From contig JANXAG010000007.1 of assembly GCA_025062375.1 (NCBI GenBank), positions 1-64,000 of the forward strand: a DNA stretch of 64,000 nt, in the 5' to 3' direction. Position 1 is the first letter of the stretch. Each line of letters opens with the position of its first letter. This document shows positions 24,848 to 26,490 of the stretch, in pieces. Made by a program: the position numbers and the translations under genes. The DNA is from Anaerolineae bacterium. GTDB lineage: Bacteria > Chloroflexota > Anaerolineae > SpSt-600. Under the pieces are notes generated by a model. It made no database searches and was not told the DNA's origin. It saw only the letters and a program-made list of their open reading frames with translations.

Positions 24848-24876
24848 TTGACAAAAGAAAAGCTCGTTGGTAAAAT
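24848..24876 (+). promoter_or_regulatory. proS: promoter of proS
   Basis: TTGACA (24848-24853), 17 bases, TAAAAT (24871-24876). Start of transcription is expected near 24883, giving a leader of about 180 bases. Confidence 0.75.
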
Positions 24877-24882
24877 TTAAAT

Positions 24883-25038
24883 TGACGGGAGGGGGAACGA
24901 TGAGCCGGAATGTCCCGTTGCCGTGCCCGATACCACGCCTTTATCCAGACCTCAGGTCTGGGTATGCCGGAGTGTTATTAGACTGAGGTGTGGCACGTCA
25001 GGGCCGGTCCCCAGACCTAAGGGGGGCCGGCCCTTTTT
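24883..25038 (+). promoter_or_regulatory. proS: structured proS leader ending in an intrinsic terminator (attenuator; possible T-box)
   Basis: A first helix pairs ACGGGA (24885-24890) with TCCCGT (24913-24918) around AACGATGAG. A second pairs CGTG (24922-24925) and CCACGCC (24933-24939) with GGTGTGG (24987-24993) and CACG (24994-24997). Inside it is a hairpin, CCAGACC with GGTCTGG (24945-24961). A terminator follows, GGGCCGG-T-CCCC (25001-25012) with GGGG-GG-CCGGCCC (25021-25033), then five T. CCAGACCT recurs at 25011-25018 inside the terminator, so GGTCTGG could pair there instead. Position and GATGAG suggest a T-box, but the UGGN box is not a clean match. Confidence 0.55.
25001..25038 (+). 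terminator. proS: intrinsic terminator in the proS leader
   Basis: GC stem of about 12 pairs with an eight-base loop followed by TTTTT at 25034-25038, only 25 bases before the proS start. Full transcription of proS requires it to be bypassed. Confidence 0.75.
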
Positions 25039-25062
25039 AAATCTCACGGGGAGGGAAAAAGG

Positions 25063-26490
25063 ATGAGGGAAAAACTTATTTCTCCTGCTGAGGATTTTTC
25101 CGAATGGTATGTTCAAGTTATCCAGAGGGCTGAGCTTGCCGATTATTCCCCGGTCAGAGGCTGCATGGTTATAAAACCCTACGGCTATGCCCTCTGGGAA
25201 AACATCCAGCAGAGCCTTGACCGTCGTTTTAAGGAGACAGGCCATCAGAATGCGTATTTCCCCCTCTTCATCCCCTACAGCTTTATTCAGAAAGAGAGCA
25301 AGCACATAGAAGGGTTTGCCCCTCAGCTTGCCATAGTCACCCATGGGGGAGGGAAGCAGCTGGAAGAGCCCCTGGTAGTCCGGCCCACCTCTGAAACCAT
25401 TATAGGCTACATGTATTCTCAGTGGATACGCTCTTATCGGGACTTGCCCGTCCTTATAAACCAGTGGTGCAATGTGGTTCGTTGGGAGCTCCGAACCCGT
25501 CCTTTCCTCCGCACGATGGAATTTCTCTGGCAGGAAGGCCACACTGCCCATGCTACCTACGAGGAAGCGGAAGAGGAAACCTTGAGGATGTTGAACATTT
25601 ACCGGGATTTTGCCGAGAACGACGCCGCAATTCCTGTGATCCTTGGCCGAAAGAGCGAATCGGAAAAATTCGCCGGAGCCCTCCACACTTACACTATGGA
25701 GGCCATGATGGGCAACAAGTGGGCTCTGCAGGCTGCCACTTCCCACAACCTCGGCCAGAACTTTGCCAAAGCTTTTGAAATCCGCTATCTGGACCGCAAC
25801 AATCAGCTTCAGTACTGCTGGACAACAAGCTGGGGCCTGAGCACCCGTTTTATCGGAGCTATTGTGATGGTTCACGGGGATGAGAAGGGCCTCAAGCTTC
25901 CTCCCAAGCTTGCCCCCATCCAGGTGATAATCGTGCCCATCTGGAAGAGCGATGAGGAGAAGGAAAAAGTTCTAGCCCGAATCGCAGAGCTTAAGCCTCA
26001 GCTCAGAGATTTTCGGATAAAAGTTGATGACCGGGAGGAATATACACCGGGGTGGAAATTTAACGAATGGGAGTTGAGGGGGGTACCCCTGCGGATTGAG
26101 ATAGGGCCTCGCGATGTGGAGGCGGGGCAGGTGGTCTTTGCCCGCAGGGATACCGGTGAAAAGTGGGAAGTGTCCACCGATGACCTCGGGAGTAAGGTGG
26201 GGAAGGTTCTGGAGGAAATTCATTTCAACCTTTTCCAGTTGGCTAAAAAATTCCGGGATGAAAACACCTTCCGGCTGAACGATTACGGAGAATTTAAACG
26301 CATTATAGAAAGCGATGGTGGGTTCATCATTGCTCCATGGTGCGAGGCGCCCGAGTGCGAGGAAGCAATTAAGGACGAAACAAAAGCCACCATACGGTGC
26401 ATACCCTTTGAACAGGATGGGCAGCTGGACCGCTGTGTATACTGCGGGAAGGAGACGACCCTCAAGGCCCTCTTTGCCAGGGCTTTCTAA
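25063..26490 (+). CDS. proS: prolyl-tRNA synthetase, archaeal/eukaryotic type (ProS type 3)
   Basis: 475 residues. Class II synthetase motifs are clear: motif 2 with [20 protein letters not shown] near 142-161 and motif 3 with [16 protein letters not shown] near 258-273, ahead of the anticodon-binding domain. It lacks the YbaK-like editing insertion of the standard bacterial enzyme. It has the extra C-terminal domain with Cys pairs (CEAPEC, CVYCG), as in archaeal-type ProRS. This type is found in Thermus, Chloroflexota and others. It charges tRNA-Pro such as the one at 45837. The start follows GGGGAGGGAAAAAGG. Confidence 0.93.

Follow-up and report, generated by a model that had tools for sequence, protein, structure and literature searches.

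A predicted proline-codon attenuator before proS in an Anaerolineae genome and related leaders of operons for proline, lysine and arginine in Chloroflexota

The leader of proS in the window, the 64,000-nucleotide stretch of Anaerolineae DNA analysed here, very probably controls the gene by ribosome-mediated transcription attenuation of the trp/his type in response to proline-tRNA charging. Ribosome-mediated attenuation is a classical mechanism type, and the sensor is most likely the translating ribosome on proline codons rather than an RNA that binds tRNA directly. It is one of a large and apparently undescribed family of switches that Chloroflexota carry ahead of genes for proline, lysine and arginine, the codons matching in each case. 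A sequence-only reading of the window had guessed, with doubts of its own, at a T-box; that guess gives way to a testable mechanism.

Architecture of the proS leader

The elements of the leader, all on the + strand, are as follows (peptides with a known end are given up to the stop codon).

24848..24876, +, sigma-70-like promoter TTGACA-N17-TAAAAT with TG before the second hexamer (consensus scan, 11/12)
24887..24895, +, Shine-Dalgarno (SD) sequence GGGAGGGGG of the leader ORF (read from sequence)
24900..24986, +, leader peptide ORF MSRNVPLPCPIPRLYPDLRSGYAGVLLD (translation; peptide partly conserved in G001 and G002)
24945..24951, +, segment 2, CCAGACC, encoding P-D, 5' strand of hairpin 2:3 (fold)
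24954..24962, +, segment 3, AGGTCTGGG, encoding R-S-G, partner of segment 2 or segment 4 (near-invariant GUCUGG; covariation with segment 4)
25011..25018, +, segment 4, CCAGACCT, upper part of the 5' arm of the terminator and its loop (complementarity to and covariation with segment 3)
25000..25038, +, intrinsic terminator (segments 4:5), 13-bp stem followed by T5 (minimum-energy fold)
25063..26490, +, proS, prolyl-tRNA synthetase, family I (TIGR00408, 604 bits against a cut-off of 437)

The promoter named in the sequence-only reading is borne out, and a TTGACA-type box is also visible by eye 5' of the leaders of G001 (same genus) and G002 (same family). That reading missed the small ORF: AACGATGAG, which it likened to a T-box GA motif, corresponds to the spacer and initiation codon of this ORF, whose start is laid out as GGGAGGGGG AACG ATG. 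A purine-rich stretch likewise precedes the leader ORFs of G001, G002 and G048 (another family). Proline codons begin at 24915, 24921, 24927, 24933 and 24945, and the first four (residues 6, 8, 10 and 12) lie just 5' of the hairpin, before proS. At the position of the family stop codon (UAG/UAA), 24963-24965, the window genome reads TAT and is one base shorter than G001, and the ORF continues to TGA at 24984-24986. Because the stop after segment 3 is lost, the state of a ribosome at the stop would differ from that in most relatives, a point against attenuation, although TAT may possibly be a sequencing or assembly error of the draft genome.

The leader folds at -74.3 kcal/mol (z -3.5) and is more stable than all 200 dinucleotide shuffles, in keeping with the structured leader proposed earlier. 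Both arms of the proposed CCAGACC/GGTCTGG hairpin are present (24945-24951 and 24955-24961), as are the second copy of CCAGACCT inside the terminator (25011-25018) and the GC terminator with T5, whose 13-bp stem spans 25000-25034 in the minimum-energy fold, with the Ts after it. Two further proposed helices hold up only in part: CCACGCC/GGTGTGG occurs in the minimum-energy fold and ACGGGA/TCCCGT is complementary but absent from that fold. On visual comparison, G002 retains neither of the two but does retain GGTCTGG:CCAGACC, which is preserved throughout the family.

Under a shortage of charged Pro-tRNA, the ribosome would stall on the proline run and mask segment 2, leaving segment 3 to pair with segment 4, so that no terminator would form and proS would be transcribed. 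With enough Pro-tRNA, the ribosome would pass the proline codons to the stop region and either cover segment 3 or let 2:3 re-form; 4:5 would then form and transcription would end before proS. In the absence of translation, the 2:3 hairpin would form, followed by termination. Ribosome stalling, antitermination in the cell and a response to proline starvation are thus predicted, whereas the ORF, the match of codons to operon, the covarying alternative pairings and the terminator are established at the level of sequence. The leader combines an ORF with a ribosome-binding site, predicted to be translated and conserved as a peptide in relatives; a run of codons for the amino acid of the downstream gene (Pro here; Pro, Lys and Arg across the class); and mutually exclusive antiterminator and terminator with compensatory changes in 3:4.

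Leaders of close relatives

The leader peptides of G001 and G002 read MMLGFPLPCPIPRSFPAPGSG and MWFKQINPPCPVEPSDKPDLRSG, respectively, and the proline codons of the window, G001 and G002 leaders differ synonymously. In both relatives a terminator follows, with CCCAGACCT as its top and loop. The 5' hairpin arm has drifted in G001 while GGTCTGGG:CCCAGACC remains unbroken, so that 3:4 appears to be the conserved element. The leader before proS in G048 is built in this way too, with the peptide MGRLSSTTRFVSPNSPNPTPDCRSG and a terminator containing CCAGACCT. When 60 relatives were searched at the DNA level, the leader from the same genus alone was clearly significant; G002 followed at 0.002, and the rest were near chance. 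Scans for proline-rich ORFs covered 500 bases upstream of proS and overlooked operons in which proS is distal. Before proS in G008 and G075 (L125 and L126), proline-rich ORFs with the SD sequence GGAGG encode MRGWPFVPIPPGPRSGA and a peptide beginning MRGWPSVPIPFGPRWG; their 3' part differs and contains no clear terminator.

A leader family across the class and phylum

The pattern GGTCTGGRTAN{30,60}CCAGACCT matched 11 of 396 class genomes and, in addition to proS leaders, revealed a lysine-rich leader, MNFLTTSKSKRGGKKPDTRSG, before lysW-lysX (G149) and a proline-rich leader at the head of a MazG-like/SLOG/proS operon (G366). Matches in G332, G083 and G271 fall inside coding regions on visual inspection and were put down to chance. 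A covariance model of the 3' module, built from eight seed leaders (rows of G048 and G013 shortened), matched 130 of 396 class genomes at E<=0.05, and its sole match in the window genome is the proS leader.

Leaders and downstream genes were inspected at the best ~110 module loci. The genes after the module belong to proS operons at 30 loci, to arginine operons at 46 (argC/argB/argD and argG/argH) and to lysine operons at 24 (lysW, homocitrate synthase, homoaconitase), the other 10 being followed by unassigned sequence, often at contig ends; proS, arg or lys genes therefore follow 100 of the 110 inspected loci, with identities checked for representatives. The arginine class was found by the model although none of its members was among the seeds. 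The module also occurs in 23 genomes of the phylum that lie outside the class, and the 19 loci inspected there all have Lys-type leaders, with homocitrate synthase or homoaconitase next in nearly all. GUCUGG is near-invariant in 93 aligned leaders, and CCAGAC or CCGGAC occupies the place of segment 2 in 51 of the inspected family leaders. At the gathering threshold, no Rfam 15 family covers the leader module in the window or at 26 further family loci.

Control codons match the downstream operon

Within the 12 residues before the PDxxSG block, Arg accounts for 22% before arg genes, Lys for 33% before the homocitrate synthase class and Pro for 27% before proS. In 73 non-seed leaders, 216 residues are cognate to the operon, compared with 103.9 +/- 11.3 under permuted labels (0/20000); the permutations treat loci as unrelated, and the three classes span many families. 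Cognate codons fall mainly at codons -7 to -14 relative to the stop.

This match bears on a very improbable alternative, in which the leader peptide would act through nascent-chain or polyproline stalling, with EF-P or another factor, instead of tRNA charging, as the signal. Proline-rich peptides can stall ribosomes without starvation (for example PMC5021804). However, prolines in the window peptide are spaced P-x-P-x-P without a Pro-Pro pair, and the same cassette carries Lys or Arg codons before lysine or arginine operons, which favours cognate tRNA charging.

Control codons also indicate which amino acid an operon serves. At L263, L293 and L319, lysW-lysX-argC-type operons have the Arg-type leaders ESKRRPSGE, NRIRRARAK and KRSPREE, from which arginine synthesis is predicted for these three lysW-lysX operons; they probably serve LysW-based synthesis of arginine, not lysine.

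Covariation and ribosome-masked folding

The proposed terminator/antiterminator switch is backed by covariation among relatives. Segment 4 is complementary to segment 3 in all eight seed leaders. Two variable segment 3 positions beside GUCUGG, which played no part in choosing segment 4, are complementary to their segment 4 counterparts in 106 of 166 cases at 83 loci, against 52.0 +/- 5.5 when permuted; in a deduplicated set of 57 combinations, 62 of 114 are paired against 34.4 +/- 4.5. In the model-fitted alignment, which includes six reverse-strand matches and is biased towards structure, 95.6% of cells are paired, and double changes number 63 compared with 22.6 after shuffling.

Folding was computed at equilibrium for transcripts ending after segment 4, with the bases under a ribosome footprint held unpaired, from 18 upstream of the first A-site base to 12 downstream of it. 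Across 83 leaders, the mean probability of 3:4 is 0.34 without a ribosome and 0.80-0.95 when the A site occupies codons -14 to -7; it is zero from codon -5 on, a result of the masking itself. In the window leader, it is 0.00 without a ribosome, when 2:3 forms, 0.68 with the A site at the proline codon at 24933, 0.99-1.00 over the next three codons and 0.53 at proline 24945. At the earlier proline codons it is 0.09-0.34, a weak antiterminator at equilibrium. These values suggest that stalls near the end of the proline run would favour the antiterminator and that lack of translation would favour termination.

Relation to T-boxes and known attenuators

Direct binding of uncharged tRNA-Pro by a T-box riboswitch is highly unlikely for the window leader. 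The downstream proS and a terminator with an alternative pairing would suit it, and T-boxes (RF00230) do control synthetase genes by antitermination, including proS in other class members: a UGGU motif occurs in 6 of 86 proS upstream regions of the class, with RF00230 confirmed at L121 and L122. However, the window leader has no RF00230 match at E<=10, while the same model finds six T-boxes elsewhere in the genome, preceding ileS, thrS, pheS, a trpB-like gene, valS and serS as judged from the next ORFs. It also lacks the UGGN bulge core (UGGU for the tRNA-Pro acceptor end), and a T-box would leave the proline-rich ORF and the codon-to-operon match unexplained. With a T-box before proS in some class members and a leader peptide in others, the class offers a clear case of sensor exchange. 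That the ORF arose by chance in a constitutive leader with an ordinary terminator or RNA-stability hairpin is scarcely credible: short ORFs are common and an SD match of at least 4 bases is found in only 55 of 95 called leader ORFs, but codons match operons over ~100 loci and 3:4 covaries.

The preferred reading, attenuation by a ribosome on proline codons, has clear parallels. Like trp/his-type attenuators of Proteobacteria and Actinobacteria, the Chloroflexota leaders have an SD sequence, a short ORF with cognate codons, exclusive 2:3, 3:4 and 4:5 helices and a terminator before the genes. In contrast, they share a near-invariant 3' cassette (GUCUGG-N-UAG; CCAGAC in the terminator) across Pro, Lys and Arg, and the last part of their ORF contains segments 2 and 3. 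Leader-peptide attenuators that place a synthetase gene under codons for its own amino acid include that of pheST in gamma-proteobacteria. Others control trpS and leuS of Streptomyces (PMC1262725) and hisS of bacilli (PMC2965389); none of these four systems concerns proS, and no Rfam or sequence relation to them was found. In Salmonella, proline codons of short ORFs before mgtCBR (mgtP) and mgtA sense Pro-tRNA charging (PMC3641672), but these unrelated leaders control Mg transport and virulence genes instead of proS.

Before its bacilli case, a 2010 survey stated, leader-peptide systems had to its authors' knowledge not been shown outside Proteobacteria and Actinobacteria (PMC2965389). No description of leader-peptide attenuation of proS or in Chloroflexota was found in openly searchable full text, though Lopatovskaya et al. 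2010 (Mol Biol 44:128, cited in PMC4833913) could contain related cases. The shared cassette and its use before proS appear to be new, and ~100 unannotated leader peptides are uncovered in a phylum for which the searched literature holds no such attenuation. More tentatively, the near-invariant part (CCRGAC..GUCUGG-N-UAG, the A-poor block that follows the stop and the terminator loop with CCAGAC) might be a portable cassette that spread among operons for proline, lysine and arginine in Chloroflexota, exchanging nothing but the control codons. Its invariance would then reflect some role besides base pairing, for instance in a hairpin-stabilised pause of RNA polymerase or in binding a factor; we regard this reading as a whole as possible but somewhat doubtful.

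Variation among family leaders

At family loci, the stop is almost exclusively UAG, and a conserved A-poor block, KYKYGYTTSGGC, extends from +3 to +14 relative to it. The block lies ~11-12 bases past hairpin 2:3, a distance that matches a hairpin-stabilised pause of the polymerase. Proline leaders at L227, L240, L286, L312, L318 and other loci head proS operons with MazG-like, SLOG-family and metallophosphoesterase genes. In G168 (L226/L213), the module, with the truncated leader NQQRNSVPGERSG, precedes a transporter gene judged LysE-like by eye. Tandem module pairs with Lys codons occur at L245 and L247 (G176 and G389), ~414 and 194 bases apart. The arginine leaders L275, L279, L297-L299, L302-L304 and L310 (f35 and related) are without an in-frame stop after GGTCTGG, and some f35-type arginine leaders read RRRSQTIGLDFEVA in another frame.
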